From NCBI GenBank assembly GCA_020721325.1, contig DYNA01000032.1, positions 1-32,812 on the forward strand: a stretch of 32,812 nt of DNA, in the 5' to 3' direction. The notes under the pieces are model-generated. The model was given only the letters and a program-made list of their open reading frames with translations. It did not search any database and had not been told where the DNA came from. This DNA comes from Paludibacter propionicigenes. GTDB lineage: Bacteria; Bacteroidota; Bacteroidia; Bacteroidales; JAIFNL01. Below are positions 9,307-26,717 of the stretch, in pieces. A program made the translations under genes and the position numbers. Within the stretch, counting starts at the first letter, position 1, and each line of letters opens with the position of its first letter.

Positions 9307-9371
9307 GGATTAATAATTTAGAAATTAAAAAAAATCCAAAAATGTTGTCTTTTTTTTATTTTTCATAAAAA

Positions 9372-10889
9372 TTATTCCCATTTACTTTCGTCAAATTCTA
9401 CTAAATAAGTCCGTATTTCTACTTTTTCAATTTGCTCAATTTTTTCACAAATCAAATTGGGCAAACGTATATCGTTGGGATAAAAAACCAGATATATTCC
9501 TTTGTTCAAATTCAAACTATTGCAGTAATAAGCCAATTGTTTTTTTCCGGTAAGAAACTGATTTTCATAATAATATATTTTAGTTTCAATTAAATATTCT
9601 TTGGAATTTACATTGATTATCAAATCGCTTTTACCCAATCCGGTATCGGCTTCGCGGTAACTTTTTCCGTTTACTACTTGCAAAAAAGCTTGGATATACG
9701 TTTCAAAACTATACATCAAGGCACTTTCTTTTATTGATGGATAGTTTCCGTTTGCATCTTTTTCTCTGAATGTTTTAAAACCCCTTCGTTTTACATATTC
9801 TTTATAATTTTTTATAAGATTATCGAATATTAAATGACCTTTTTCATCAAAAAGTTCATCTATTATTATATTTCGTAAAATAGTTGTTTTTTCCCCATTC
9901 GTATAAGGATAAAAGGCATCATAGAGTCGTTTTTTGTAAAATGGAACCCAAAATGTAACAAAACCTTCTTCGTCTTGTTTTATTAAACCGTTGGTATGCA
10001 ATAATTTAATTGCCGGACGGTCGATTTTAAAAGGGATTTTGTCTTCGGTAAAAAGCAATCGTTCAACAAAATTACGCTCTTCGGTGGCTTTGTTTAAAAT
10101 ATTTTCAAAATTTTTGTCAATCGTTAAATTCAAATACCAATGCTCTACTTTCAAATAGTCTTGATAATCAATTATTTGCTTGCCTTCAAAATCTTCTACC
10201 AACTTTTGTGCAAATCCATTGACTAAACCCGGCTGATTAGCAGTTATTTGGCTTATTTTGCGCTTTACTTTGTCTTCAAAAAGTTGTCCCGTTTCACTTT
10301 CGTGTTGCGCTAAAAGTTCAAAAACTTCACTTTCTGTAAAATACGGAACACTCAGATTATCAGCTATATTAAAAGGTGAAGCGTTGTCGCTCACAACGCC
10401 CACAATGTTTGAAACACCCACCAAAATAACGCTGTGCAAGCTGTGTTGATAGCGCGAATGATAAACACGCCGTATGGAGTGCAAAAATTGACCAAAATAT
10501 TCTGAATTTATTCCTTCTACTTCGTCAATAATTAACACAAATTTTTTATCTGTTTTCTTTTCAATTTCATAAAAAATTTGAGATATATTTGTTTGTAATA
10601 ATTGAGTTCCCCAAAAAGTATTTATTTTGTCCACAAATTGTTGCATAAACGTTTCTATGGGCGAAATTTTGCTATCTTCAAAATTAATATGAGCTACTTT
10701 ATAACCCGTTTGCTCTAAAACTTCTGAGAGTTGTGCAAAATATGTACTTTTTCCGGTTTGTCGCGGCGCCCAAATGGTAAAATACCGCTTTTCTTTTACC
10801 AATTGCAGACCTTTTTTTATCAAATCGGTTCTGTAAATGGTATAATGTTCTTGCGCAATATTGGGTCCGGAGGTATTAAATCTTCGCAT
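9372..10889 (-). CDS. AAA ATPase with PD-(D/E)XK-like C-terminus, copy 1
   Basis: A 505-residue ATP-binding protein of a family common as isolated genes in Bacteroidota and cyanobacteria, recognised by its RRFNTSGPN start. Walker A is APRQTGKST (41-49) and Walker B VLIIDEVEG (118-126). A sensor-like stretch LVGVSNIVG is near 156-164. The middle region is probably a winged-helix lid. The C-terminus has D422 in KSDLIINV and E435-x-K437 in LIETK, the spacing of a PD-(D/E)XK nuclease fold. The protein is identical to that of the neighbouring copy. The role is unknown; selfish or defence functions have been suggested for similar architectures but nothing here proves either. Confidence 0.85.
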   Translation of the reverse strand: MRRFNTSGPNIAQEHYTIYRTDLIKKGLQLVKEKRYFTIWAPRQTGKSTYFAQLSEVLEQTGYKVAHINFEDSKISPIETFMQQFVDKINTFWGTQLLQTNISQIFYEIEKKTDKKFVLIIDEVEGINSEYFGQFLHSIRRVYHSRYQHSLHSVILVGVSNIVGVVSDNASPFNIADNLSVPYFTESEVFELLAQHESETGQLFEDKVKRKISQITANQPGLVNGFAQKLVEDFEGKQIIDYQDYLKVEHWYLNLTIDKNFENILNKATEERNFVERLLFTEDKIPFKIDRPAIKLLHTNGLIKQDEEGFVTFWVPFYKKRLYDAFYPYTNGEKTTILRNIIIDELFDEKGHLIFDNLIKNYKEYVKRRGFKTFREKDANGNYPSIKESALMYSFETYIQAFLQVVNGKSYREADTGLGKSDLIINVNSKEYLIETKIYYYENQFLTGKKQLAYYCNSLNLNKGIYLVFYPNDIRLPNLICEKIEQIEKVEIRTYLVEFDESKWE

Positions 10890-10907
10890 TTTCTATTATT
10901 TTTTTTA

Positions 10908-10915
10908 CAAAAGTA
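10908..10915 (-). promoter_or_regulatory. Likely -7 box of ATPase copy 1
   Basis: TACTTTTG on the minus strand, 18 nt before the ATG. The duplicated copy has TATTTTTG at the equivalent site, so the two copies differ in a non-consensus base while both keep TAnnTTTG. Confidence 0.5.
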
Positions 10916-10943
10916 TAAAAAATTATTATAATTACCTGTAAAA

Positions 10944-12461
10944 TTATTCCCATTTACTTTCGTCAAATTCTACTAAATAAGTCCGTATTTCTACTTTTTC
11001 AATTTGCTCAATTTTTTCACAAATCAAATTGGGCAAACGTATATCGTTGGGATAAAAAACCAGATATATTCCTTTGTTCAAATTCAAACTATTGCAGTAA
11101 TAAGCCAATTGTTTTTTTCCGGTAAGAAACTGATTTTCATAATAATATATTTTAGTTTCAATTAAATATTCTTTGGAATTTACATTGATTATCAAATCGC
11201 TTTTACCCAATCCGGTATCGGCTTCGCGGTAACTTTTTCCGTTTACTACTTGCAAAAAAGCTTGGATATACGTTTCAAAACTATACATCAAGGCACTTTC
11301 TTTTATTGATGGATAGTTTCCGTTTGCATCTTTTTCTCTGAATGTTTTAAAACCCCTTCGTTTTACATATTCTTTATAATTTTTTATAAGATTATCGAAT
11401 ATTAAATGACCTTTTTCATCAAAAAGTTCATCTATTATTATATTTCGTAAAATAGTTGTTTTTTCCCCATTCGTATAAGGATAAAAGGCATCATAGAGTC
11501 GTTTTTTGTAAAATGGAACCCAAAATGTAACAAAACCTTCTTCGTCTTGTTTTATTAAACCGTTGGTATGCAATAATTTAATTGCCGGACGGTCGATTTT
11601 AAAAGGGATTTTGTCTTCGGTAAAAAGCAATCGTTCAACAAAATTACGCTCTTCGGTGGCTTTGTTTAAAATATTTTCAAAATTTTTGTCAATCGTTAAA
11701 TTCAAATACCAATGCTCTACTTTCAAATAGTCTTGATAATCAATTATTTGCTTGCCTTCAAAATCTTCTACCAACTTTTGTGCAAATCCATTGACTAAAC
11801 CCGGCTGATTAGCAGTTATTTGGCTTATTTTGCGCTTTACTTTGTCTTCAAAAAGTTGTCCCGTTTCACTTTCGTGTTGCGCTAAAAGTTCAAAAACTTC
11901 ACTTTCTGTAAAATACGGAACACTCAGATTATCAGCTATATTAAAAGGTGAAGCGTTGTCGCTCACAACGCCCACAATGTTTGAAACACCCACCAAAATA
12001 ACGCTGTGCAAGCTGTGTTGATAGCGCGAATGATAAACACGCCGTATGGAGTGCAAAAATTGACCAAAATATTCTGAATTTATTCCTTCTACTTCGTCAA
12101 TAATTAACACAAATTTTTTATCTGTTTTCTTTTCAATTTCATAAAAAATTTGAGATATATTTGTTTGTAATAATTGAGTTCCCCAAAAAGTATTTATTTT
12201 GTCCACAAATTGTTGCATAAACGTTTCTATGGGCGAAATTTTGCTATCTTCAAAATTAATATGAGCTACTTTATAACCCGTTTGCTCTAAAACTTCTGAG
12301 AGTTGTGCAAAATATGTACTTTTTCCGGTTTGTCGAGGTGCCCAAATGGTAAAATACCGCTTTTCTTTTACCAATTGCAAACCTTTTTTTATCAAATCGG
12401 TTCTGTAAATGGTATAATGCTCTTGCGCAATATTGGGTCCGGAGGTATTAAATCTTCTCAT
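10944..12461 (-). CDS. AAA ATPase with PD-(D/E)XK-like C-terminus, copy 2
   Basis: Encodes exactly the same 505 residues as the gene downstream of it at 9372-10889, so the same motifs apply. Five coding differences between the copies are all synonymous, including changes inside the APRQ codons of Walker A. Each copy keeps its own -7 box, so they need not form one transcription unit. The gene is divergent from the FHA-ABC exporter gene across a 240-bp gap. Near-perfect identity means a recent duplication, ongoing gene conversion or an assembly artefact. There is no transposase or terminal inverted repeat around the pair. Confidence 0.85.
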   Translation of the reverse strand: MRRFNTSGPNIAQEHYTIYRTDLIKKGLQLVKEKRYFTIWAPRQTGKSTYFAQLSEVLEQTGYKVAHINFEDSKISPIETFMQQFVDKINTFWGTQLLQTNISQIFYEIEKKTDKKFVLIIDEVEGINSEYFGQFLHSIRRVYHSRYQHSLHSVILVGVSNIVGVVSDNASPFNIADNLSVPYFTESEVFELLAQHESETGQLFEDKVKRKISQITANQPGLVNGFAQKLVEDFEGKQIIDYQDYLKVEHWYLNLTIDKNFENILNKATEERNFVERLLFTEDKIPFKIDRPAIKLLHTNGLIKQDEEGFVTFWVPFYKKRLYDAFYPYTNGEKTTILRNIIIDELFDEKGHLIFDNLIKNYKEYVKRRGFKTFREKDANGNYPSIKESALMYSFETYIQAFLQVVNGKSYREADTGLGKSDLIINVNSKEYLIETKIYYYENQFLTGKKQLAYYCNSLNLNKGIYLVFYPNDIRLPNLICEKIEQIEKVEIRTYLVEFDESKWE

Positions 12462-12701: not shown

Positions 12702-15569
12702 ATGAAAGAACAAATTTATAAATTTATTATTACCATTAAGGGAAATGAAATAAAAAAATTCGCTTTTTCAAAAGGCGAAAATGCCTCTTTAATTATTGGA
12801 CGAAAATCTACTTCCGATATTGTAATCGATTCAAATTTTGTTTCGGGCAACCATTTGCAATTGCTCAAAGACGAATACGATAATCTATTCATCAAAGACT
12901 TAGACTCCACTAACGGTACTTTCCTTAACGGAAAAAAAATACCGCCGCAAGTAAAAATACCACTAAAATTAAATGATATTGTTGCCTTTGTCGATGGTTC
13001 GGATATTCAGCTTTTGGTCTTAAAACCAAGTGGTTCACAAGCATCTGATAGCAATTTTTCGGCTCAAGGGAAAAACCTTGCCGGAAAAAATGAAATTACT
13101 ATTGGGCGAAATGCCGATTGCGATTTTGTAATTAATAATCAAATCGTTTCGCGCCGACATGCCATTTTAACCAAAAACAGCGACGGTTCATACACTTTGC
13201 GCGACAATAATTCTGCCAACGGAACGTATATCAACAACAGTTTGCTGACCGGAAGCCGCAGAATTTCAGCTACCGATACCATTAAAATTGGTCAAAAAAC
13301 TTATACTTTAAGCGATTTTATTGGCGAAAAAGCTCAACCGCAAACTCCCGATTCAGTTCACGAAGCCTCAAGTCTTCAAAAACTTTTACAAAACAAAAAT
13401 ACAATTGTCATCGGGCGAAGCAAAAATGCCAACTTAATTATTAACGATAATTTAGTTTCTCGGGAACATGCTCGAATAACAAAAGAGAACGGAAAATATT
13501 TTGTCCAAGATTTAGGCTCAACCAACGGAACGTATATAAATGAGGAAAAAGTTTTAAAAAAGCTGGAATTTAAAGCCGGCGATGAACTCCGAATTGGTTT
13601 AAAAGTTTTCAGTCTCGACCAAGCCGAGCGCGAATTGAGCGACACTACGGCTATTCGTGCCACGAATGTAACTAAAAAATTTCCAAATGGTTACGTAGGT
13701 TTGAAACCGATGAGCGTAAACATTCCGAGCCGAGCTTTTATTGCTCTCATGGGACCGTCAGGCTGCGGAAAAACTACTTTAATGAATACCCTGAACGGCG
13801 ACAATCCGGCGACCGGCGGAAGTGTTTACATTCATGGTTTGGAGCTGAAGCGAAACTATCAAATGCTCAAACAGAAAATAGGCTATGTGCCTCAAGATGA
13901 CATTGTTCACCGCGATTTGACCGTTGATAGTTCACTTTATTACGCCGCCAAATTGCGTATGAACCCCGATACAACCGAACAGGAAATTCACCAGCGCATA
14001 GACGAAGTACTTACAAGCCTGAAAATCAATCGCCCCGATATTAGGCAAAAGCCCGTTGGTAAACTTTCGGGCGGGCAGCGAAAAAGAGTTTCAATTGCCG
14101 TAGAATTATTAAATAAACCGGCAATTTTATTTCTTGACGAACCCACATCTCCACTTGACCCCGAAACCATTGACGGTTTTTTAACCAGCATTAAGGAACT
14201 GGCTGAAAAAGAGCAAACTACCGTAATTATGGTTACTCATAAACCTTCCGATTTAAACTATGTGGACAGGGTAATTTTCTTAGGCACAGAGGGTTATCAA
14301 GCTTTTTACGGAAGTGAAAACGAATTGTATGACCATTTTGAAATTAAAGACCGAAATATTATTCGTGTTTATTCCATGCTCGATACGGGAAATAAAGCTG
14401 AAACATGGAATAAAAAATGGTTAGAAGTTTCTCAAAATATAAGTTCTCAGGTAAAAGAACAAAAAGGTTTTGAACGCGAAGCTCAAAAAGTATCTTGGTT
14501 TTTGCAACTTTTCTGGCTCACCAAACGCTATGCCAACATCAAACTCAACGACAAGGGCAATATGGCTCTGCTTATGATGCAACCGATTGTTATTCCGTTG
14601 GCATTGGTTTATTTATTCGACCAACTGCAATTGGGCGTGCTGTTTATGATGGCGGTTTCAGCCATTTGGTTTGGCGTAAGCAATGCTGCCAAAGAGATTG
14701 TAAGTGAAATTCCGATTTATAAACGTGAACGTATGTTCAATTTGAACATCACAACGTACATGCTTTCAAAGATTATTGTGCTTTCCATTATTGCTTTGGT
14801 GCAAGTAACTATTTTTGTTCAAATTGTCGGTTTATTTATCAATAGTTCCAGTACGATTGATATGGTAAATATTCCGCAAGCCACGTTATTTTTGTTCTTT
14901 TTGTCGTTTTCGGCTACTTTAATGGGTTTGCTGCTGTCGGTGGTTTTCGATAATGCAGAAAAAGTGATGACTTTTATACCCATAATTTTAATTCCACAAA
15001 TTATATTTTCCGGTGTAATTGCCGATATTGACCGAAAAGACAAAGAAGTTTTCAGTTATACCATGTTTGGACGCTGGGGAACGGAAGGTTTAGCCCGAAT
15101 ACAAAGCGATTATAACGATTATAGAAAAACGGATACTGTGGTTTTGGTTATCAAAATAGGCGAAGATATTGATACAATTCCTGTTATAGATACGATTTAT
15201 CCGGGTGGAATGGTCAAATTGAAAAATAAAGTAATAAAAATTCCAAAATTTAAAGACACTCTTCTGGTAAATACTACAATAAAAAGTGTAAGTAATTCGG
15301 TGCCGAAAATGATAGTTTATTCAGATACGTTGGTCATTAAAGAAGATGGAAAAGATGAAAACACCGACAAAGACACTGTGCCACACAAAAAAACCGGTGA
15401 AAGTGAATTTAAAGGTGCCGACCCGCTCAAAAATTTAAAATTTTATGAAAATAGTAAACTTATTAACGCTTTTAATTCATTGAATAAGAATATTTTAGCA
15501 ATTAGCATCATCGATATTTTGTTATTAATTTCAATTTATGTATTTTTGAAAAGAAAAGATACCATTTAA
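12702..15569 (+). CDS. ABCG-type transporter with three FHA domains
   Basis: A 955-residue half-transporter that probably works as a dimer in the inner membrane. Three FHA phosphothreonine-reader domains come first: about 30-85 (GR, SGNH, STNGT), 132-185 (GR, SRRH, SANGT) and 235-290 (GR, SREH, STNGT). The nucleotide-binding domain (320-530) has Walker A GPSGCGKTT (351-359), signature LSGGQ (455-459), Walker B ILFLDE (475-480) and H513. Its D-loop reads SPLD instead of the usual SGLD. Membrane helices lie near 622-640, 644-662, 690-713, 728-749, 757-775 and 929-949, with an unusually long outside loop (776-928) before the last. Mycobacterial Rv1747 has the same order with two FHA domains and is controlled by kinase PknF. 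Substrate unknown. First gene of the island. Confidence 0.93.
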   Translation: MKEQIYKFIITIKGNEIKKFAFSKGENASLIIGRKSTSDIVIDSNFVSGNHLQLLKDEYDNLFIKDLDSTNGTFLNGKKIPPQVKIPLKLNDIVAFVDGSDIQLLVLKPSGSQASDSNFSAQGKNLAGKNEITIGRNADCDFVINNQIVSRRHAILTKNSDGSYTLRDNNSANGTYINNSLLTGSRRISATDTIKIGQKTYTLSDFIGEKAQPQTPDSVHEASSLQKLLQNKNTIVIGRSKNANLIINDNLVSREHARITKENGKYFVQDLGSTNGTYINEEKVLKKLEFKAGDELRIGLKVFSLDQAERELSDTTAIRATNVTKKFPNGYVGLKPMSVNIPSRAFIALMGPSGCGKTTLMNTLNGDNPATGGSVYIHGLELKRNYQMLKQKIGYVPQDDIVHRDLTVDSSLYYAAKLRMNPDTTEQEIHQRIDEVLTSLKINRPDIRQKPVGKLSGGQRKRVSIAVELLNKPAILFLDEPTSPLDPETIDGFLTSIKELAEKEQTTVIMVTHKPSDLNYVDRVIFLGTEGYQAFYGSENELYDHFEIKDRNIIRVYSMLDTGNKAETWNKKWLEVSQNISSQVKEQKGFEREAQKVSWFLQLFWLTKRYANIKLNDKGNMALLMMQPIVIPLALVYLFDQLQLGVLFMMAVSAIWFGVSNAAKEIVSEIPIYKRERMFNLNITTYMLSKIIVLSIIALVQVTIFVQIVGLFINSSSTIDMVNIPQATLFLFFLSFSATLMGLLLSVVFDNAEKVMTFIPIILIPQIIFSGVIADIDRKDKEVFSYTMFGRWGTEGLARIQSDYNDYRKTDTVVLVIKIGEDIDTIPVIDTIYPGGMVKLKNKVIKIPKFKDTLLVNTTIKSVSNSVPKMIVYSDTLVIKEDGKDENTDKDTVPHKKTGESEFKGADPLKNLKFYENSKLINAFNSLNKNILAISIIDILLLISIYVFLKRKDTI

Positions 15570-15735: not shown

Positions 15736-16443
15736 ATGGAAAAATGTAAAAACGGACACTTTTACAATCCGGCTACGCACAGCCATTGTCCATACTGTCC
15801 ACAACCCGAAGGACAAAATAACAACCCGAATGAAACGGTAAAAACCAAGCAATTCGATGGAAATCAGGGCGATAAAACCGAGCATTTTAATACGAAAAAT
15901 GCCGACCCTTCCAAAACGGATATGTTTGACAAACCGGAGAATAACCACAACAAAACACAGCTTTTCGACAACGCAAACGAAACCGATGTTTTTACAAAAG
16001 ACGTTAAAAAAACTGCGATTGTAAACGAAAACAAAGAGCAAGATTGGAACAAAACCTACATAGGCATTGACGATGACGACGATTTGCCCGATGGAAATCA
16101 AGACAAACTCCGCGACAACGCACCCAGAGCGCAACGGAAACTCGTTGGCTGGCTGGTTTCGTACACCATCGACCCGCTCGGAATCGATTTTCGACTTTAC
16201 GAAGGAAAAAATGTAATCGGTTCAGCTCCCGACAACGAGATAACCGTTATGGGCGATAAATTGGTATCTTCGCGTCATGCAACCATTTTATTTAGAAGTA
16301 ATAAATTTAGATTGAAAGATGAATTTTCTACCAACGGAACGTTTTTAAACAACGAAGATATTGAAGATGAAGTGATTGCATTAACCGATGGCGATATTAT
16401 CAAGGTAGGTGCAACCTTTTTTAAATTCAGGTCTGCATTATAA
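15736..16443 (+). CDS. Zinc-finger/FHA protein with repeated KTxxF motifs
   Basis: A 235-residue soluble protein. The N-terminus (C4, H8, H17, C18, C21; CKNGH and HCPYC) looks like a small zinc ribbon. Residues 30-110 are low in structure and carry evenly spaced threonines, each followed at +3 by Phe: T37, T48, T61, T74 and T83, then weaker T93 and T107. Four of the five TxxF sites are preceded by Lys. An acidic DDDDD stretch follows. The FHA domain (about 150-230) has SSRH and STNGT, but the Arg of the phosphate-binding GR pair is Ser163. The repeats suggest a multi-phosphorylated docking platform for the FHA proteins next door (inference). The gene follows the ABC gene after 166 nt and precedes the vWA gene by 39 nt. 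Confidence 0.85.
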   Translation: MEKCKNGHFYNPATHSHCPYCPQPEGQNNNPNETVKTKQFDGNQGDKTEHFNTKNADPSKTDMFDKPENNHNKTQLFDNANETDVFTKDVKKTAIVNENKEQDWNKTYIGIDDDDDLPDGNQDKLRDNAPRAQRKLVGWLVSYTIDPLGIDFRLYEGKNVIGSAPDNEITVMGDKLVSSRHATILFRSNKFRLKDEFSTNGTFLNNEDIEDEVIALTDGDIIKVGATFFKFRSAL

Positions 16444-16482: not shown

Positions 16483-18108
16483 ATGAAATACATAAAAATT
16501 ACTGTTTTTTTTATTTTCATTTCTCCTTTTGTCTTTGCCCAGCAAATTGGAAAAGTAAGTAAAACCGAGTTGGAAGAATTTCCGAAAGTTAAATTTACTC
16601 TCAACTTGTTTAAACCCGAAGAAAAAGCTACCGGCGACTTTCAACTCTTTGAAGATGAGAAGAGTATGGAATTTACCGTTGAGCGTTCCAATGCTCCGAT
16701 TTTGGACAAAACCAAACATATTTTGATTCTTTTTGAGGACATGACTTCTCATATTAACCAAAGAGATTATTTTAGGTATGTTTTGGAAACAGCCATTCCA
16801 AAATTCGTAAATAAAGGCGATAAAGTGAATATTGCTGTTTTCGATAGAAATAGAGGAGAAAAAACGTCTTTACGATTTTTACTCGATAATTATTCAGATG
16901 ATGTTGATTTATTGGTAAATGCAGTAAAAACTTTCCGAACGATTTACGACGAACACAGCAACAAAAAAAGTTCCGAATTGTACGATGCCATTGACGATGG
17001 ATTGAATAATTTGCATGAAAAATTTCCCAATAAAAATGCTTTTATACTCGAACTTTCTGCCGGTTTTAATTTAAGAGACAACAATGCTGTTACACAAGAA
17101 GGCTTAATTGCTACCTCGCGTGAGTACAGAATACCAATTTATTCGGTGTATTACAACATTTACGACAACAGAACCGACAACGATTATGCTGAAAAGTCTT
17201 TCGGTCTTTTCTTCTTATCCGATAAAAAACGAGACGATAAAGAAAAAGCCGCCGAACAAGTAACCGAATTTATGAAAAATGCTTTAAAAAGGCATTATGG
17301 CTACAATTACACGTTTACTTATACTTCCAACGCTAAACAAGACGGTAAAATTCACAATTTAGTGATTAAAGTAGATGGACAAACCGTTGAAGAAAAACTA
17401 CAAGCACCGTCTTGCGATTTGGTTTGTTTTGTGAAAAATAATTTGGTATTAGTTGTATTGGGATTTGTTGCACTTTTGGGTATTGGAATTGGTCTTTTTG
17501 TTTTTTCAAAAAAGAAAAAAGAACAAGAACAAAGAATGCAAGCCCAAAAAGAAGCCGAACAAACCGAAAAATTAAAGCAAATTGAAATTCAACGCCAAAA
17601 AGATAAAGAAGAGCAATTGAAACGCGAAGAAGCTATGCGTCTTGAAAATGAGCGACTTGAACGCGACCAACGCGAACAGCGTGAACAACAGTTGCGTATT
17701 CAACAACAAATGGAGTCTGACAAATTGGCAGAACAACGCCGCAGACAAATGGAAATGCAACAAATGCAAGAACACGAGCGAAATGCCAAACTTTTGGACG
17801 AAATGAAACGAAATAGAGGCGGTTTGCCTTCGCTCAAAGTGGTTTCGCACGGTTTGAACAAAGATTTTGTAATAAATAAACCCGTTATTTCTTTTGGTAG
17901 AGAAAAAAATCTGAACGAGTATTTTATGCAAGAACCTACGGTTTCGGGCAAACATTTTGAAATTCAATACGTTGCAGGTGAATATTTTTTACAAGATTTG
18001 GGCAGCACCAATGGTACAAAAATCAATGGAACACCTGTAAAAAGGCATAAACTCAAACACAACGACATTATTCAAGCAGGAAAAGCGCAAATGATGTTTA
18101 TTTGGTAA
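16483..18108 (+). CDS. Periplasmic vWA-like, transmembrane, coiled-coil, FHA protein
   Basis: A 541-residue bitopic protein. A signal peptide (1-19, ending VFA) sends the N-terminal half to the periplasm. Residues 77-270 have the von Willebrand A pattern, with strand KHILILFEDMTSH and the helix/strand order that follows, but the metal site is degenerate: D86-x-T88-x-H90 instead of DxSxS, and LSAGFN where a TDG-type loop is expected. One membrane helix (319-341) is followed by KKKK, a strongly charged coiled coil (343-440), and an intact cytoplasmic FHA domain (450-535; GR, SGKH, GSTNGT). A periplasmic sensing domain thus faces a cytosolic phosphothreonine reader. The next gene, PP2C, begins 33 nt later. 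Confidence 0.85.
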   Translation: MKYIKITVFFIFISPFVFAQQIGKVSKTELEEFPKVKFTLNLFKPEEKATGDFQLFEDEKSMEFTVERSNAPILDKTKHILILFEDMTSHINQRDYFRYVLETAIPKFVNKGDKVNIAVFDRNRGEKTSLRFLLDNYSDDVDLLVNAVKTFRTIYDEHSNKKSSELYDAIDDGLNNLHEKFPNKNAFILELSAGFNLRDNNAVTQEGLIATSREYRIPIYSVYYNIYDNRTDNDYAEKSFGLFFLSDKKRDDKEKAAEQVTEFMKNALKRHYGYNYTFTYTSNAKQDGKIHNLVIKVDGQTVEEKLQAPSCDLVCFVKNNLVLVVLGFVALLGIGIGLFVFSKKKKEQEQRMQAQKEAEQTEKLKQIEIQRQKDKEEQLKREEAMRLENERLERDQREQREQQLRIQQQMESDKLAEQRRRQMEMQQMQEHERNAKLLDEMKRNRGGLPSLKVVSHGLNKDFVINKPVISFGREKNLNEYFMQEPTVSGKHFEIQYVAGEYFLQDLGSTNGTKINGTPVKRHKLKHNDIIQAGKAQMMFIW

Positions 18109-18141: not shown

Positions 18142-20121
18142 ATGGCACAAAATATTTTCAATATACAAAAAGACGTTTGCAGCCTATCCGATGTGGGCAA
18201 TGTGCGACCTAAAAACGAAGACAATCAAGGATATACGAACACCGAAAATGGTCATATTTTTGTGGTTTGCGATGGAATGGGCGGACACGTAGCCGGCGAA
18301 TTGGCGTCAAAAATAGCTGTTGAAACCATTATCGAATATTTTATCACTCGAAATGTTCCAAACATTTATGTGGGCATGAATGAAGCTATTGAATTGGCTA
18401 ACAGTAATATATACCAACGCGCCGTAGAAGACCGCAGCCTCAGAGGTATGGGAACAACGGTGGTTTTGTTGGTTGTAAAAAACGACAAAATTTTTATTGC
18501 TCACGTGGGCGACAGTCGAATTTACATTCATTCCAACGGCGAATTGCACCGAATTACAAAAGACCATTCGTTTGTGCAAACCCTTGTAGATAAGGGAACT
18601 ATAAGCGATGACGATGCCGAACATCACCCGCGAAAAAATGAATTGATGCGAGCCTTAGGAATTGATAAACAGGTAACGGTTGAAGTTTTTGATAGTGCTA
18701 TTTTGGCAAAAAATGGCGACATGTTTTTGATGTGCAGCGACGGTTTGAACGGCATGGTGAACGATTTAACGATGGAATCTGTTTTGAACAAACCCGAAAC
18801 GGTAACTCAAAAAGGCGAAGAATTAATTAACCTTGCCAAAATGGCAGGCGGAAAAGACAACATTACGCTTACGCTGATTGAAATAACCAACAGCCCGCAT
18901 CGAAATTCGCGATTTGTTTCAAAATCGCCCAAAAGAATAACCATTCCAAAAACCAATCCCGATATAAAATTGGTTAATACCCTTTCGGGAAACGATTTTT
19001 CCGAAAAACCGGAAGTTGAAAATAAACAAGTTGATAAATTTTCTAAAAAAAAAGAGCCGGAATTTACAAAAAATAATGAACAAAACGACATGCCACCTAC
19101 CAACGAGAACGAAAAAAATAAGAAAAAACTTTTTACTATCGTTGTAGGAATTTTAGCAGTAGTGGTGCTGGTGGTGGTTTTATTTTTTGCAGGAGTTTTC
19201 GATAAAAAACCTTATGAAGTTTTAATAATTGAACAAAACTCAAAAATGAAGTTAGGTTATTTTGAAACACTTGATGAAGCAAAAGATGCAGCACGATTGG
19301 ATATTGAACAGAGAAAAGTAAAAGCAAAATTTGAAATTTGGCTTTATAAAAATAAATTCGCAAGTCTTGAATTTACAGAAGACCCAGATGCGCCTGTTAT
19401 TCCTTTAAATTCAGAAGAAAACGAATTAAACAAATCGGTAGTTGTTCCTGAGGGTGTTGGTTGGAAAGCTTTGTATGAAGAATACGGCGTTTGCAAATGC
19501 TACATTATTGAATCAAATCCGGCATCAAGTTTTACAAAAGATATTAATTTAAAGGCAAATACAACTTACATTATACCGCTTCATTTTTCAAGTAAAAAAG
19601 AACACAATCCAAAAAAATACATGGATTATTCACTCGAAAAAAAGGGCTATGATAACAACGGAAATTGTTCAAAATACAACAAATGCGTAGCAACAACGGG
19701 CGGTACAAGCAGAATTATTAAACCCAAAGAAGACCCGAAAAAGGAAAACTCGAAAAATGAGGTTGCCCCAACAGAAGAAAATACCAACGAAACTACTGTA
19801 AATGACCCGAATACAGAAAAACCAAAAACAGAAACTACCACCGAACTTACGCCCGAACAAAAAAAGGCTGCCGCATTAAAAGCTTATGAAGATGCAAAAA
19901 TTAAATATGAAGAGGCTCAAAAAGCTACAAAGGACGCACATGCGGAATATGTAAAAGTTACAGAAGAACTTCAAATAGAAAAATTAGGTAAAAAAGACAA
20001 AGAAAAAATAAAACGTCTTGACACGGAAATAACCTTGTCAAGCAATAAATATAAAGATGCCCAAAAAGCTGAAAAAGCAGCAAAAGAAGCAATGATTAAA
20101 GCCAAAGCGGAGTTAGATTAA
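18142..20121 (+). CDS. PP2C Ser/Thr phosphatase with periplasmic tail
   Basis: A 659-residue membrane-anchored phosphatase. The cytoplasmic PP2C domain (10-248) has every core motif: RPKNEDN, D44 in CDGMGGH, GMGTT, HVGDSR with D124, SDGLNG with D200 and GGKDN with D239. A low-complexity linker leads to one membrane helix (329-351), which puts the C-terminus in the periplasm. There, residues 357-412 form a small α/β segment that loosely resembles a SPOR fold. Residues 433-480 resemble a divergent LysM domain (VPEG...LYEEYGV...SNP...YIIP). The tail (570-659) is a Lys/Ala-rich coiled coil. It is the only phosphatase in the island and so the likely off switch for all three kinases. The LysM-like and SPOR-like calls are tentative; PP2C is certain. 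Confidence 0.94.
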   Translation: MAQNIFNIQKDVCSLSDVGNVRPKNEDNQGYTNTENGHIFVVCDGMGGHVAGELASKIAVETIIEYFITRNVPNIYVGMNEAIELANSNIYQRAVEDRSLRGMGTTVVLLVVKNDKIFIAHVGDSRIYIHSNGELHRITKDHSFVQTLVDKGTISDDDAEHHPRKNELMRALGIDKQVTVEVFDSAILAKNGDMFLMCSDGLNGMVNDLTMESVLNKPETVTQKGEELINLAKMAGGKDNITLTLIEITNSPHRNSRFVSKSPKRITIPKTNPDIKLVNTLSGNDFSEKPEVENKQVDKFSKKKEPEFTKNNEQNDMPPTNENEKNKKKLFTIVVGILAVVVLVVVLFFAGVFDKKPYEVLIIEQNSKMKLGYFETLDEAKDAARLDIEQRKVKAKFEIWLYKNKFASLEFTEDPDAPVIPLNSEENELNKSVVVPEGVGWKALYEEYGVCKCYIIESNPASSFTKDINLKANTTYIIPLHFSSKKEHNPKKYMDYSLEKKGYDNNGNCSKYNKCVATTGGTSRIIKPKEDPKKENSKNEVAPTEENTNETTVNDPNTEKPKTETTTELTPEQKKAAALKAYEDAKIKYEEAQKATKDAHAEYVKVTEELQIEKLGKKDKEKIKRLDTEITLSSNKYKDAQKAEKAAKEAMIKAKAELD

Positions 20122-20163: not shown

Positions 20164-20973
20164 ATGTATCCGATTATAAAAGAAAATTTAGAAATAAAAC
20201 GCGAACTCGGAAGCGGTGGAACAGCCAAAGTATTTTTGGCTTACGACCGTTGGGCGAAAAAAAATGTTGCCATAAAAGCCTTGTTTAAAACACGTTACGA
20301 AGATAAAATCATTCGTGAAAAATTTAAGCAAGAGGCAAATTTGTATCTGTATTTGGAGCATGAAAACATTGCCAATTTGACCGATTACATTGTAACGCCC
20401 GAAACGGATTACATTGTTATGGAATTTATTGACGGCATCAACTTGGAAGAGTACATTCAAACCAAATCGGGTCCGATAGCCGACGAAAATTTGGTGCGAA
20501 TTTTTTCGCAAGTGCTTCGCGGAGTGGCTTATGCACATCACAACAATGTTACTCATCTCGATATAAAACCCAGCAACATAATGATAACCAGAGATATGCA
20601 CGTAAAAGTGTTGGATTTTGGCATTTCGTCGTCAAAGGACGAAAAAATAGAAAGTGCCAAACGCCGCATGGGTACGCCCATGTACATGAGTCCTGAGCAA
20701 ATTGATATGAAAAACATTGGAAGACAAAGCGATATCTATTCTTTGGGCGTAACTTTACATCACATGGTTACCGGACAGTTGCCTTACAAAGGGGGTTCGA
20801 TAAAAGAAATTTTTTATAAAATAAAAAACGAAAAACTGCCGAGAATCAAAGACTTATACCCTTTTGCAAATCCGAAATTGCAGCCTATTATAGACGCAGC
20901 AACTGAAAAAGATTTGAAAAAACGCTATCAAACTTGCGAAGAGTTTGAATATTATCTTTCTACTATTTTATAA
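20164..20973 (+). CDS. Soluble Ser/Thr protein kinase, non-RD type
   Basis: A 269-residue kinase consisting of the catalytic domain alone; no membrane segment. K38 (VAIK), E57, catalytic D133, N138 and DFG (151-153) are present, along with SPE (176-178), so it should be active. Two features differ from the other kinases of the island: the glycine loop ends in Ala (GSGGTA), and the catalytic motif is HLD instead of HRD, which makes it a non-RD kinase that need not be switched on by activation-loop phosphorylation. GTPMYMSPEQ of the P+1 loop is conserved. It lies between the phosphatase and the FHA-RDD gene (gaps of 42 and 26 nt). It may act as the cytosolic effector kinase or a constitutive writer (inference). 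Confidence 0.94.
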   Translation: MYPIIKENLEIKRELGSGGTAKVFLAYDRWAKKNVAIKALFKTRYEDKIIREKFKQEANLYLYLEHENIANLTDYIVTPETDYIVMEFIDGINLEEYIQTKSGPIADENLVRIFSQVLRGVAYAHHNNVTHLDIKPSNIMITRDMHVKVLDFGISSSKDEKIESAKRRMGTPMYMSPEQIDMKNIGRQSDIYSLGVTLHHMVTGQLPYKGGSIKEIFYKIKNEKLPRIKDLYPFANPKLQPIIDAATEKDLKKRYQTCEEFEYYLSTIL

Positions 20974-20999: not shown

Positions 21000-22004
21000 A
21001 TGGAAATAAAAATTATAGGACGCTCGCCCGAATGCGATTTTTTTTATGAAGACCCGTTTATTTCGCGACAGCATTTGCAATTTGTGAAATATTCTGATTT
21101 CGATTATCGCATTATTGACATCGATTCTACCACCGGAACTTACGTAAATGGGCAAAAAATACCTCCCGGAACCGAATATAAATTGGAAAAATCCGATGTT
21201 GTGAAAATTGGGAACACGCTTTTAAAATGGAATGAATTTTTCAAAACGCCTTCCAAAACGGTTTCACAACCAGATATTTACGCTACTAAACCTGATGAAG
21301 AGGTTTTAAATAAAAATTCCGGTAATTTAGAACCTACTTTGCCCAACGAACTTTTTGAAATGGTAAAAGCTTTTGCCGAAGATGGAGTTTATACTGAGAA
21401 AGAGCAAATTGCTTTAAAATCGTATTGCCAAACGCATAACATTGATTATGAGAAATATATAGAGCCTTTGATTAATGAAGCCATTTTTAATGTAAATAAG
21501 AACAAAAAAGAGCAAGAGCTTAAAAATCAAAACGATAGCCAAAACAACAAAACCATTCACAATTATACGGTCGATACCATGGGCGATTTGGTTTTTAAAC
21601 CATTGTATGCCACGTTTGGTCAGCGTTTGGGAGCTTTTCTTATTGATGCCATTATTTTGAGTGTTTTGGAAGTTTTAATCAGTTTTGTTTATGTTAGCCT
21701 AAACGGAATGTATGATTATGAAGATTTACTGATTTTGAATGTGTTATATATAGTAATTTCGTGGTTTTATTTTGCAATTTTGGAAAGCAGCAAAGCCGGA
21801 GCAACTTTTGGAAAACAAGCGGTAGGATTGTTTGTGGTGAATGAAAATAATAATAGAATATCATTTTTTCAAGCTTCCGGTCGATTTTTTGCTCGTATTT
21901 TATCGGTTTTAATTTTATTTATCGGTTATTTGATGCCATTGTGGACAGAAAAAAAACAGGCATTACACGATTTAATTTCGGGTTGCATTGTAGTAAAAAA
22001 ATAA
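21000..22004 (+). CDS. FHA-RDD membrane protein with helical linker module
   Basis: A 334-residue protein with three parts. The FHA domain (1-75) has GR and SRQH, but STTGT replaces the usual STNGT, so a conserved Asn is lost. Residues 117-165 form a helical module with EDGVYTEKEQIALK in the centre, which recurs in the kinase encoded just downstream. The C-terminal half (about 203-334) is an RDD membrane domain: the R209-x-GAFLID block, then helices near 212-235, 243-262 and 297-313, GATFGKQAVGL and the closing QALHDLISG. RDD proteins are proposed transporters or ion exchangers, but roles are poorly known. Coupling FHA to RDD suggests a phosphothreonine-controlled membrane protein. A 29-nt gap separates it from the next kinase. 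Confidence 0.9.
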   Translation: MEIKIIGRSPECDFFYEDPFISRQHLQFVKYSDFDYRIIDIDSTTGTYVNGQKIPPGTEYKLEKSDVVKIGNTLLKWNEFFKTPSKTVSQPDIYATKPDEEVLNKNSGNLEPTLPNELFEMVKAFAEDGVYTEKEQIALKSYCQTHNIDYEKYIEPLINEAIFNVNKNKKEQELKNQNDSQNNKTIHNYTVDTMGDLVFKPLYATFGQRLGAFLIDAIILSVLEVLISFVYVSLNGMYDYEDLLILNVLYIVISWFYFAILESSKAGATFGKQAVGLFVVNENNNRISFFQASGRFFARILSVLILFIGYLMPLWTEKKQALHDLISGCIVVKK

Positions 22005-22033: not shown

Positions 22034-23596
22034 ATGATAGGAAAAGAAATAAACAATTATAAAGTAGAAAGTCTTTTGGGACAAGGCGGCATGGGAAGCG
22101 TTTACAAAGCCACACACACGGTTTTGAAACGAATAGCAGCCCTAAAATTATTGCATTTTAATTTTTCAGAAAATCCAAAAGTATTGGAACGTTTTAAAAA
22201 TGAAGCTCTTACGCTTGATGACTTAAAGCACGATTCCATTGTACAGTTGCTTGATTATGGAAAATTTGAAAATCGCCCGTTTTTGCTACTCGAATACATC
22301 GAGGGCGTGCCTCTTGATGATTATATAAAAAATATTTCGGGTCCGATACCGGAAGAACGGGCGTTGGAATTGCTTTTGCAAATGCTCGAAGGCATCAATT
22401 ATGCACACAAAAAAACGGTGGTACATCGCGATATTAAGCCTTCCAATTTTATGCTTACGCCCGAAGGCAAAATTAAAATTCTCGACTTTGGAATTGCTAA
22501 AATCTTGTCAGACAACAACATGAACATGACACGCGAAGGACAAAAGTTAGGAACTGTTCCTTACATGAGTCCCGAACAAATTCAGGGCAAATTGATTGAT
22601 ACACGAAGCGACATTTATTCACTCGGAGTTACTCTTTTTCAGATGCTTACGGGAAAAGAACCTTATGAAAATACCTTTACGGAATGGGAACTTTCCAATA
22701 AAATAGTTTTCGAGCCGTTGCCGAAAGCTAATTTAATTTACCCGCATATTTCCGATGGCACTCAGCATTTAATTGATAAGGCTACCGCCAAAAATAAAGA
22801 CGATAGGTTTCAGACATGCGAAGAATTTATATCGGAAGTTCACAATTTGTTACCCAATAAAGAATTGATAAACAATGAATTAGCAAATAAAAAATCCATA
22901 GAAGAATCCACGAAAGAATATTCAAAATTATTTGAAGTTTTTTATGAAGATAAAATAATTTCCGAATCAGAGCGAGAACTTTTAAAAAGAAAACAGGTAG
23001 AATTGAATTTAGACGAATCGGTTGTTTTGGAAATTGAAAAAAATATTTTCGCAAAATTTTCAAAAAATGAAAATTCAAAAAATGAAAATTCTAATCAAAC
23101 GACAGAAAAACCGATTGCATCGGATATTGTAATAACTGAAAACTTTAATTTGAAATCAAAAAATAAAAATAAAAAAATAGGTATTTTAGTAGGTGCAGTA
23201 CTGGTTTCGATTTTAATTTTTTTTGGTATCAAAATGATGTTTTTTTCAGAATCAGAAAAAATTGATTATGAAAATACAAATTTTGAAACTCAATACATTG
23301 GAAAAATGGAATGGGAAGGAACGGAAGTTTCTATTCGATTGAAAATTAATAAAGTAGAGCCGGATTGGACGGTTTATTACGATTTTTTCTTAAAAGCCGA
23401 GCAAAAATTAACAAACAAGCAAGCTCGAATAAATACCCAAACCAATGAAATTACTTTTTTATTAAAAGATGCAGAAGATGCTGAAAAAGAAATAATTAAA
23501 CTGCTAAATACAGCAAAAATAAATAAAAATTCTATCGGAAAAATAGAATTTACTTCAACAAATAATGAATGGAAATTAATGCAATTAATACAGTAA
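22034..23596 (+). CDS. Transmembrane Ser/Thr protein kinase
   Basis: A 520-residue bitopic kinase. The cytoplasmic catalytic domain (9-272) is canonical: LGQGGMG, K38 in ALK, HRDIKPSN with D133, DFG (151-153) and GTVPYMSPEQ. Residues 298-342 hold a helical module (LFEVFYEDKIISESERELL) that matches the one in the FHA-RDD protein. A low-complexity linker with a small NSKNE repeat follows (about 346-352), then a single membrane helix (382-404). The remaining 115 residues would be periplasmic and β-rich, with WEGTEVSIRLKIN and YYDFFLK strands. That domain is unrecognised and may sense a ligand. The lipoprotein gene starts 4 nt after the stop, so the two are probably translationally coupled. Confidence 0.94.
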   Translation: MIGKEINNYKVESLLGQGGMGSVYKATHTVLKRIAALKLLHFNFSENPKVLERFKNEALTLDDLKHDSIVQLLDYGKFENRPFLLLEYIEGVPLDDYIKNISGPIPEERALELLLQMLEGINYAHKKTVVHRDIKPSNFMLTPEGKIKILDFGIAKILSDNNMNMTREGQKLGTVPYMSPEQIQGKLIDTRSDIYSLGVTLFQMLTGKEPYENTFTEWELSNKIVFEPLPKANLIYPHISDGTQHLIDKATAKNKDDRFQTCEEFISEVHNLLPNKELINNELANKKSIEESTKEYSKLFEVFYEDKIISESERELLKRKQVELNLDESVVLEIEKNIFAKFSKNENSKNENSNQTTEKPIASDIVITENFNLKSKNKNKKIGILVGAVLVSILIFFGIKMMFFSESEKIDYENTNFETQYIGKMEWEGTEVSIRLKINKVEPDWTVYYDFFLKAEQKLTNKQARINTQTNEITFLLKDAEDAEKEIIKLLNTAKINKNSIGKIEFTSTNNEWKLMQLIQ

Positions 23597-23600
23597 GATT

Positions 23601-24578
23601 ATGAAAATGAGAATTTTATCTTTTTTAATTATTTTAGTTGGTCTTTATGCTTGTTCGGGCAATTGTGAAGAAGAGGTTGCTCTTTTAAAGAACAAAATAA
23701 CTGAATATGAGCAACAAACAGAGCTTACGACTTTAGCCATGAACGAATACGACCAACAGCTTCAAACGTATAAAACCAAAGACGATTCGCTTAAAATGTT
23801 TCGCGACTCAATTGAGATGTTATCAACAAAAATGCGTTCTTCGGGGCGTGCGAGTGCTTCCGATAACAAAGCCATGAACAATTACGTTAAAGAAATGCAG
23901 CGTATTTTAGGTGAAAATAAGGAACTTACAAAAATTTTGGAAGAAAAAGTCGGTAAAGGAAACATTGGCGATAATCCGGCTTTGGTAGTGAGTGTTTTGG
24001 CACAAAACATTGAAACAAAAGAACGCGAAATTGCTGATTTACAGCGACAAATAACCGAATTGCAAAAAGAAGTAAAAGGTTTGAAAGTGGAAATTGAAAC
24101 AATTACTGATGTAAACATAAAAATGACGGATACTTTGGGAAATCTAAAAAATGAAAATCAAAACTTAACAAAAGAAGTTAAAGTGTTGAAAGTTAATAGA
24201 ATAACGAATAAAATATATAATAAAAAAGGAAACGATATAACAGATAATAAGATAAAACTTTATAACACCATCGGGTCGGTAGAGATTTGTTTTACATTGG
24301 AAAAAAATAAATTTGCCGATGTTGGAAATCACAATATTTATGTTTGTTTAATTAAAGGAGGTTCTGTTTTGACCAATTCCTCGTCAAATCTTTTTACGTC
24401 AGATGCTGGAAAACAAATTGGTTATACCATAAAAACGACAGTAAATTATCAGGGAGAATTGATTAGAACCTGCACGAATTGGCAAATTGGAAATAATAAA
24501 ATCGAAAAAGGCAGTTATGAAGTTCTGATTTACGATGAAAAAGGTCGAAAAATTGGAAATGATTTGTTTTCGATATAA
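23601..24578 (+). CDS. Coiled-coil lipoprotein
   Basis: A 325-residue envelope lipoprotein. The signal peptide ends in a clear lipobox, LYAC, with Cys18; the next residues are SGNCEEE. Two long coiled-coil stretches (about 24-118 and 133-200, the second with regular Leu/Ile heptads) lead to a β-rich C-terminal domain (about 202-325). That domain has a strand pattern like a small β-sandwich and contains two Cys. No enzymatic motif is seen. Tight coupling to the preceding membrane kinase (4 nt) suggests it is that kinase's periplasmic partner or ligand carrier. M3 is an alternative start with the same signal peptide. It is the last gene before the large hairpin. Confidence 0.85.
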   Translation: MKMRILSFLIILVGLYACSGNCEEEVALLKNKITEYEQQTELTTLAMNEYDQQLQTYKTKDDSLKMFRDSIEMLSTKMRSSGRASASDNKAMNNYVKEMQRILGENKELTKILEEKVGKGNIGDNPALVVSVLAQNIETKEREIADLQRQITELQKEVKGLKVEIETITDVNIKMTDTLGNLKNENQNLTKEVKVLKVNRITNKIYNKKGNDITDNKIKLYNTIGSVEICFTLEKNKFADVGNHNIYVCLIKGGSVLTNSSSNLFTSDAGKQIGYTIKTTVNYQGELIRTCTNWQIGNNKIEKGSYEVLIYDEKGRKIGNDLFSI

Positions 24579-24689: not shown

Positions 24690-26717
24690 ATGATAGGGCA
24701 AACCATTCAAAATTACACAATTGAAAGCAAAATAGGCGAAGGCGGAATGGGCGATGTTTATTTAGCTAAGCACATACTTTTAGATAAAAAAGTGGCTATA
24801 AAAATGCTGAATGTCAATTTAAGTAAGCACAAAGAATTTTTAGCGCGTTTCGATATTGAGGCACGTACTTTAAATAAATTGAAAAGTAAATATATAGTAG
24901 AACTTATTGATTATAACCAACTTAATGGAGTTCCATATTTAATAATGGAATATGTGGAAGGCACACCTTTAGACGACTTTATAAAGAAAATTTCAGGTCC
25001 CATACCCGAATCGCGTGCCATTAAGTATATGCTACAAATTTTGGAAGCTGTTGATACAGCGCATAAAGCAGGAATTATTCACCGCGATTTAAAACCTTCA
25101 AATTTCATTTTGACTCAAAAAGATGATATTAAAATATTAGATTTTGGAATTGCAAAAATGATGTCGGAAACGGAAAACCATCAACTGACTAAAATGGGAC
25201 AAGGTATGGGTACCCTGCCTTATATGAGTCCGGAACAAATCTTAACAACCAAACTTGAAAATACCAGCGATATTTATTCTTTGGGCGTTTGTCTTCACCA
25301 TTTTATTTCAGGCAAAGAGCCTTATAATCTGGAACTTACACGCCGTCAAATAGAAGATAAAATTATCCAAGAACCTTTAGAACGAATTAAAAATATTTAT
25401 CCGTTTGTAAGTGAAAAAATTCAAGCTATTGTGGACAAAGCAACTGAAAAACAAGCAGATAAACGTTTCCAATCTTGTTCAGAATTTGCAGAAGCTTTAC
25501 AATTGGAAAAAACAATTTCCATCAATTCAAATAGTGATAATATTTTATTAGACAAATCGAAACAGAATATTGTAAATAGGGAACTAAACGAGGAAAAACA
25601 AAAGAATGAAAAAACACAAATAGTTGAAAAAACACAAATAATTGAAAAGAGTGTTATTGCAGAAACAGCTAAAAATGAGCTTAAAACGAACAATAAACAA
25701 TTAGAAAACAACCTCAATGAACAGGAACTTCCAAAAATAGATGTTCAAAAAAATGAACAAAAAACAGTTTTAGAAAATAAAAAATCGAATAAAAATATTT
25801 TTATATTTTCAGGTATTTTAATTTTAATATTTATTGTATTATTTATATTTTTTGGTCAAAATAATAATAAAATAGAGGAAGTAAAACAACATAATGAAAT
25901 TGAAACTTCTGAAAATATTGAAAACGATAAAACAAAAATTAAGGCAGTAGATGTTCCAAAAAATTGTGAAGCGGATTTTAAAAATGGTTTGGCAATTTTC
26001 ATAAAAGAAAATAATAAAAATTATGGTATTTTGAATGAAAATTGTGATACAATTTTAAGCTCGTGTAATAAAATAGAATGGCTCAAAGAAGGGACAGTAT
26101 TATTAGCTCAAAAAGATGGTAAATTTGCACTAATCCACGCGCAAAATCCAAAGGAAATGGATTTTAAATATAAAAGTTTTTCGGTATTTAGCAAGAGTTT
26201 AAAAAAGTATGCTTGGAAAGCCGAAAATTTTGAAAATAAGTCGATTGTATTTTTTAATAATGAATTTATTCTTACTTCAACTTACCAATCGATGGAATTT
26301 AGAAGTTTCTGGGGCAGTGGTTATTACGTTGTAGCAGCCAACGGAAAAAAAGGTATTTTTTCAAAAGAAAAAGGTGAAATTTTAGCATGTAATTATCAAA
26401 AAATTCTTTGGATTGATAATTTTGAATACTTTTGGGTGCAAGATGTTGATACAAAAAAATGGGGTGCTTACAATAAAGATGGTAAATTAACGGCTATTCA
26501 AATGGCTTATGAAGAAGACTTTAAAGAACTTAATTCCAATTTGTTAGCTGTTAAAAAAAATGGAATGTGGGGAGTTGTTTCGATGAATGGACAAATAAAA
26601 TTAAATTTTGAATATCAAGCAATTACAAAAACACAAATGGAAAAATTCTCGTTTTCGGCAAGCCATAAAAGTATGCAAACTCATTATTTCGATGCCAATG
26701 GAAATAAAGTTAATTAG
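24690..26717 (+). CDS. Transmembrane Ser/Thr kinase with WG repeats
   Basis: A 675-residue bitopic kinase, clearly paralogous to the 520-residue kinase of the island (same ISGPIPE block near residue 101 and PLDD(Y/F)IK). The catalytic domain (9-272) has GEGGMG, K38, HRDLKPSN with D133, DFG and GTLPYMSPEQ. A long hydrophilic linker (275-368) with a duplicated EKTQI(V/I) motif leads to a membrane helix (369-388). The outer part (430-675) contains WG-type β repeats: NYGILNE, DGKFALIH, GKKGIFSKEKGEIL, KWGAYNKDGKL and MWGVVSMNGQI. WG repeats are known in Bacteroidota envelope proteins and are thought to mediate binding. murB follows after 19 nt. Confidence 0.94.
   Translation: MIGQTIQNYTIESKIGEGGMGDVYLAKHILLDKKVAIKMLNVNLSKHKEFLARFDIEARTLNKLKSKYIVELIDYNQLNGVPYLIMEYVEGTPLDDFIKKISGPIPESRAIKYMLQILEAVDTAHKAGIIHRDLKPSNFILTQKDDIKILDFGIAKMMSETENHQLTKMGQGMGTLPYMSPEQILTTKLENTSDIYSLGVCLHHFISGKEPYNLELTRRQIEDKIIQEPLERIKNIYPFVSEKIQAIVDKATEKQADKRFQSCSEFAEALQLEKTISINSNSDNILLDKSKQNIVNRELNEEKQKNEKTQIVEKTQIIEKSVIAETAKNELKTNNKQLENNLNEQELPKIDVQKNEQKTVLENKKSNKNIFIFSGILILIFIVLFIFFGQNNNKIEEVKQHNEIETSENIENDKTKIKAVDVPKNCEADFKNGLAIFIKENNKNYGILNENCDTILSSCNKIEWLKEGTVLLAQKDGKFALIHAQNPKEMDFKYKSFSVFSKSLKKYAWKAENFENKSIVFFNNEFILTSTYQSMEFRSFWGSGYYVVAANGKKGIFSKEKGEILACNYQKILWIDNFEYFWVQDVDTKKWGAYNKDGKLTAIQMAYEEDFKELNSNLLAVKKNGMWGVVSMNGQIKLNFEYQAITKTQMEKFSFSASHKSMQTHYFDANGNKVN

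Follow-up and report, generated by a model that had tools for sequence, protein, structure and literature searches.

A conserved array of threonine-centred units, candidate FHA ligands, in the linker of a zinc-ribbon/FHA protein of Paludibacter propionicigenes

The zinc-ribbon/FHA protein and its neighbours

The window, i.e. the whole 32,812-nucleotide stretch of P. propionicigenes DNA that was analysed (contig DYNA01000032.1), encodes a 235-aa protein composed of a zinc ribbon, a disordered linker and an FHA domain (15736..16443). This gene and the candidate partner genes described below all lie on the + strand. The architecture was derived from the open reading frame, a Pfam FHA match to residues 160-225 (PF00498, 5.4e-16) and 70 homologues. 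The N-terminal zinc ribbon (15736..15807) has the form CxNGHx9CPYC, in which C4, H8, C18 and C21 would bind zinc; C4, N6, G7, H8, C18, P19 and C21 were invariant in 34 homologues. An AlphaFold2 model made with 34 homologues had pLDDT values of ~94 for the zinc ribbon, ~96 for most of the FHA domain and ~49 for residues 30-130. No secondary structure was present in residues 30-130 of the model, which supports the disorder that the initial annotation had proposed for this Asn/Asp/Lys-rich linker. For the C-terminal FHA domain (16135..16440), the nearest FHA domains were those of GarA, FhaA and Rv1747 by sequence and of FhaA and GarA by fold, with a Foldseek match to FhaA (3poa) at an E value of 4.8e-9 and a TMt of 0.89.

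Several kinases and six FHA domains had been noted nearby, and this count was reproduced by Pfam, which assigned three kinases and FHA domains distributed as 3+1+1+1 between 12702 and 26717 and also placed one PP2C in this interval. The three-domain set belongs to an Rv1747-like FHA-FHA-FHA-ABC transporter (12702..15569), a candidate reader of phosphorylated threonines whose FHA domains are all canonical by the signature residues read from the sequence. The best candidate reader is a membrane protein with a C-terminal FHA domain that is encoded directly downstream (16483..18108); its signal, transmembrane segment and vWA-like part were assigned by eye and Pfam yielded the FHA domain alone. A candidate eraser, the PP2C phosphatase (18142..20121), scored above the NCBIfam Stp1/IreP cut-off. 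Candidate writers are three Ser/Thr kinases recognised by Pfam: kinase 1 (20164..20973), with HLDIKPSN and DFG read from the sequence; kinase 2 (22034..23596), with a hydrophobic, transmembrane-like segment; and kinase 3 (24690..26717), with a weak WG repeat and, by motif scan, EKTQIVEKTQII in its linker. A further candidate reader recognised by Pfam, an FHA-RDD membrane protein in which STTG replaces STNG, is encoded between kinases 1 and 2 (21000..22004).

Other features of the region were also recorded. The kinase 3 linker holds a short tandem repeat of K-T-x-I form, NEKTQIVEKTQIIEKSVIAET (window 25610-25680), and this repeat was absent from the genus-mate orthologue (L018). A lipoprotein-like coiled-coil protein with a weak coiled-coil Pfam match is encoded between the kinase genes (window 23601-24578) and is kept in L018. 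In window 9368-12461 a 505-aa ATPase-like ORF occurs twice in tandem; the copies are identical in protein and 99.7% identical in DNA, with a 1572-base offset and 1396 exactly identical bases, and either arose by recent duplication or reflect an error of assembly. A reading of the cluster as a defence system was set aside, as PADLOC matched the kinases to its PD-T4-6 and mad6 models as generic kinases and returned no match for the zinc-ribbon/FHA or vWA-FHA proteins.

Threonine-centred units of the linker

Translation confirmed the initial observation that five linker threonines are followed by Phe at +3 and mostly preceded by Lys, with Phe in 5/5 units and Lys at -1 in 4/5. These are, with the coordinates of the residues from -1 to +3, unit 1 (vkT37KQF; 15841..15855), unit 2 (dkT48EHF; 15874..15888), unit 3 (skT61DMF; 15913..15927), unit 4 (nkT74QLF; 15952..15966) and unit 5 (neT83DVF; 15979..15993), the last having Glu before the threonine. 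The linker (residues 23-132) contains 10 Thr and exactly five Phe, each located at T+3. This arrangement was reached by 0 of 200,000 composition-preserving shuffles of the linker, and a look-elsewhere procedure admitting any low-count residue at offsets of -6 to +6 gave 0 matches in 20,000 shuffles. Two further units, KT93AIV (unit 6; 16009..16023) and KT107YIG (unit 7; 16051..16065), have K-T-x-I in common.

Homologues were collected by several searches. An order-level search gave matches in 12 of 393 genomes, the window's own included, and a family member was present in 11 of 396 genomes of the phylum, i.e. a patchy distribution. A scan of genome contigs with the single protein as query gave no match, and a plasmid search gave one distant match limited to the FHA part. 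An alignment query retrieved 80 named loci, nearly all titled Bacteroidota and one titled Ignavibacteriae. Cultured carriers of the family include Raineya orbicola and Rhodocytophaga aerolata. The comparative set consisted of 70 distinct full-length zinc-ribbon/linker/FHA homologues, from which 34 representative linkers (window excluded) formed a reduced set. A held-out set of 13 linkers outside the main analysis was cut out by hand, with one of each group of near-duplicates taken. It includes the linker of the L112 protein, a zinc-ribbon-less subgroup with arrays of FDPQRTQPxG, and more distant members whose units are of KTVI type. All of these homologues share common ancestry, and motif counts are not independent events.

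Alignment of orthologues showed that the units are kept while the linkers diverge, both in the two closest orthologues and in most of the 70 homologues; the first of the refuting outcomes named in the initial annotation, orthologues without the repeats, was thus not borne out. In the two closest orthologues the threonines T48, T61, T74, T83 and T107 were invariant, as were 19 of the 87 remaining linker positions (Fisher P 0.004); the linker threonines at 34, 53, 87 and 93 all varied. F64, F77 and F86 of units 3, 4 and 5 were likewise invariant in these orthologues, and unit 1 was kept in part. Across 34 homologues, T48 and T74 were each conserved at a level of at least 90%. T93 and T107 had been described as decayed copies. 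This may apply to T93, where a close orthologue has Ser, but not to T107 (NKTYIG), the most conserved unit; as T107 was invariant in 34/34 aligned homologues, it represents the core unit and not a decayed copy.

Linkers of the 70 homologues and the 13 held-out sequences mostly contain between two and six units, each written as [DN]-[KR]-T-x-[IVM]-[F/Y/M/V], with a family consensus of [DN][KR]T[QEK][IV][F/M/Y/V]. Around the threonines of the 70 linkers, enrichment was observed for K (4.5x) and R (3.4x) at -1, D (2.0x) at -2 and L (3.8x) at -3 on the N-terminal side, and for Q (2.7x) at +1, I (4.8x) and V (3.1x) at +2 and F (4.0x) at +3 on the C-terminal side. Phe at +3 is thus one preference among several in the family and not the strict rule that the window protein would suggest. 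The even spacing has a similarly local validity: the seven units of the window protein are separated by 11, 13, 13, 9, 10 and 14 residues (CV 0.15, P ~0.0003 vs random placement), but in the family one pair was 4 residues apart and spacing otherwise ranged over 8-50 residues with a median of 18.5.

The central residue was strictly threonine. The variable position was Thr in 66/66 occurrences of [KR]X.[IVM][FY], never Ser, and in 58/58 occurrences of [DN][KR]X[QEKRM][IVM], both counts reflecting in part shared ancestry, and nothing comparable to the Thr-centred enrichment was found around Ser in the 70 linkers. In the 34 reduced linkers [KR]Tx[IVLM] was observed 72 times vs 3.6 expected and the Ser version 0 times vs 2.9 expected, with two or more units in 24/34. 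The held-out linkers contained 53 [KR]T vs 10.7 expected and 4 [KR]S vs 11.2 expected. The Thr-only rule fits the selectivity of FHA domains, which recognise phosphothreonine in preference to phosphoserine.

Two deviations were observed within the family. In the zinc-ribbon-less subgroup (L118-L126) the units are of the form FDPxRTQxhG and follow one another in tandem, with as many as six in a single protein. One homologue (L012/L099) has long P/E-rich repeats (EPIELPEATVELPE) in place of the units, a replacement that could mark loss of function.

The FHA domain and the linked genes

The FHA domain of the window protein has the FHA fold, for which the canonical contacts are not needed; these contacts are needed for calling an FHA domain a classical phosphothreonine reader, and here the GR arginine is replaced by S163 (16222-16224) and the second basic phosphate contact by S179. 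Loss of the GR arginine was rejected as a family-wide rule, since 37/70 members keep it, but at least one canonical contact was missing in 69/70. The Asn of T/S-N-G was kept in 41/70, the Arg and Asn losses were largely complementary, and members keeping both usually had a changed third contact (AANG, TANG). The full set of contacts (GR Arg, SxxH Ser, T/S-N-G) was present in one member only (L013), and Arg or Lys was found in 0/70 where DgcB has its second basic contact (R76, SRxH). In contrast, the neighbouring vWA-FHA proteins retained the GR Arg in 58/58 and the full contact set in 44/58. As judged by these residues, the protein's own FHA domain is consistent with relaxed or altered phospho-binding, contact loss being no proof of binding loss. 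Because its own FHA domain lacks canonical contact residues, a feature that the initial annotation had not foreseen, the readers of the units are more likely to be FHA domains acting in trans.

The gene order is shared by much of the family. A vWA-FHA gene (vWA assigned by eye) was directly downstream in 57 of the 74 loci with room for it, and PP2C, kinase and further FHA genes were found near the family gene in 53, 48 and 49 of 80 loci, respectively. The unit itself is confined to the family: KTxhF had a density of 3.62 per 1000 aa in family members vs 0.03 in the remaining ORFs of these loci, with values of 0-0.15 across the further protein families of the cluster. The motif was therefore rejected as a cluster-wide feature, with no enrichment in the kinases, PP2C, vWA-FHA, FHA-ABC or FHA-RDD proteins, EKTQIVEKTQII of kinase 3, which L018 lacks, being the exception. 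A DNA-level search of the genome for pairs of KTxhF units was uninformative, with 9 matches vs 27 in a reversed control. In Raineya and in locus L069 the family gene stands alone, i.e. with no linked kinase or FHA genes, and the Raineya case indicates that a platform of this type can act with dispersed partners.

A proposed docking platform and its alternatives

As the units are kept, are strictly threonine, match solved FHA ligands at +2/+3 and lie in a conserved kinase/PP2C/FHA cluster, they are best read as a multi-phosphothreonine docking platform, as the initial annotation had proposed; strict Phe at +3, conserved even spacing and decay of T107 found no support. The linker would be a tandem array of phosphothreonine ligands, of which several would be phosphorylated by the linked Hanks kinases and dephosphorylated by the PP2C. 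Phosphorylated units would be bound in trans by FHA domains of neighbouring membrane proteins, in particular that of the vWA-like protein encoded downstream, with the triple-FHA ABC transporter as a further potential trans reader in this genome. One small protein could thereby bring together several membrane partners with FHA domains, by recruitment or clustering that depends on phosphorylation, while its own atypical FHA domain would probably not capture the units in the classical way. We regard such a kinase-written, PP2C-erased, multivalent ligand read in trans by other FHA domains as having a somewhat better than even chance of being correct, and the linker is probably a phosphorylation-switched docking strip for the FHA proteins encoded beside it. 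Its support comes from the array, family-wide retention, Thr specificity, confinement, predicted disorder, gene linkage and the atypical FHA domain, while the orphan genes (Raineya, L069), the patchy family and the unit-less L012 count against this reading. A literature search found no report of phosphorylation or binding for any family member.

The window protein can be compared with several known systems. In GarA and OdhI of Actinobacteria, a Hanks-kinase-written phosphothreonine tail (ETTSVF, with Phe at +3 of the second Thr; GarA peptide SDEVTVETTSVFRADFL; PMC8546545) consists of one short site that is captured by a working FHA domain of the same protein. In the Bdellovibrio FHA-GGDEF protein DgcB, the tail LEKpTSIV is inserted in the FHA domain through pT14 and the Val at +3, and its hydrophobic -3, +2 and +3 positions are common to GarA and OdhI (PMC6733907). 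The DgcB tail is of the same K-T-x-I-hydrophobic type as the unit and is seen bound to an FHA domain, but is a single ligand supplied by the protein itself and attached to an enzymatic output domain. A phosphorylated unit of the window protein might likewise fold onto its own FHA domain, or onto that of a second copy to give self-assembly, with several units merely tuning the switch. The shared architecture (N-terminal phospho-tail plus FHA), the nearest FHA structures (FhaA, GarA and OdhI) and the resemblance of the DgcB and GarA tails to the unit favour such a switch. We nevertheless consider it unlikely, its self-assembling form included, since the contacts lost from the protein's own FHA domain are kept by the neighbouring ones, the changes differ by lineage (Arg to Ser, Asn to His, Thr to Ala) and 2-6 units are superfluous for a single-tail switch. 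The window protein also differs from GarA and OdhI in having a zinc ribbon, an atypical FHA domain and, at -1 of the family unit, a Lys/Arg unlike the GarA site. It did not reach equivalog-level similarity to GarA/OdhI, with 29.8 bits against the NCBIfam OdhI model (cut-off 200), and has several KTxhF units in place of a single ETTS tail.

Other alternatives dispense with an FHA reader. Phosphorylation acting through charge or as a counter would be in line with the linked kinases and phosphatase and with the fact that multi-site disordered substrates are common; a threonine that is never exchanged for Ser, together with hydrophobic residues fixed at +2/+3, is typical of FHA ligands and superfluous for charge, and this explanation appears improbable. 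More doubtful still is a short docking motif that is independent of phosphorylation, e.g. through beta-strand addition to a partner. The hydrophobic +2/+3 residues could suffice for this, the DgcB tail was also seen bound in unphosphorylated form (PMC6733907) and orphan family genes occur without linked kinases, but the model leaves unexplained why, among kinase and FHA genes, Thr never changes to Ser or Val. Hardly any credence is given to a recent functionless expansion of a low-complexity repeat; regular local spacing and an Asn/Asp/Lys-rich linker would suit it, but it is already contradicted by the persistence of units across Bacteroidota and the record titled Ignavibacteriae while the linkers diverge.

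The docking platform also has partial parallels. Rv1747 of M. tuberculosis (FHA-linker-FHA-ABC) forms condensates through its FHA domains and disordered linker, a process that PknF promotes and PstP reverses (review, PMC9312465). A triple-FHA ABC transporter is likewise present in the cluster described here, but Rv1747 combines FHA domains and a disordered linker in one protein whereas the acceptor array of the present cluster belongs to a small protein of its own; the FHA-ABC group contained no KTxhF and the units lie in the adjacent gene, so that the Rv1747-type combination of acceptor and FHA in one ABC transporter was not found. By analogy, clustering of such transporters is possible and may occur here. 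ArnA and ArnB of Sulfolobus are a zinc-finger/FHA protein and a vWA protein paired under Ser/Thr kinases (PMC6509490). In that pair it is the vWA partner that is phosphorylated, and phospho-recognition remains functional in the zinc-finger/FHA partner; here these roles seem to be exchanged, with the vWA part of the neighbouring protein assigned by eye. Human MDC1 is an adaptor with an FHA domain of its own, and several T-x-x-F units (pTQXF) in one of its regions are read in trans by the FHA domains of RNF8 and Pellino, with contacts to the Phe at +3 (PMC11884936). MDC1 is an unrelated protein, phosphorylated by ATM and with an obligatory Gln at +1, and the analogy is a convergent one with no claim of homology. 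The fuller picture of a bacterial MDC1-like adaptor, i.e. a docking strip whose own FHA domain has been disabled and so does not capture its tags, and which gathers FHA receptors of the membrane and an FHA-gated ABC exporter into clusters, is put forward tentatively and has a less than even chance.

From the sequence data, the window protein appears to be a variation on the FHA phospho-tail theme, the initial observation being confirmed with two corrections and its interpretation supported in outline. Bacteria commonly encode FHA proteins and Hanks kinases, but few of the pairings between them have been worked out; hardly any such work was found in the literature for Bacteroidota. The conserved Thr-only motif provides a directly testable FHA ligand and substrate for the linked kinases. 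Many ligands combined with a degenerate FHA domain of its own would make this protein a clear example of a bacterial adaptor in which ligand and reader are kept apart, as they are in the eukaryotic DNA-damage adaptor MDC1.
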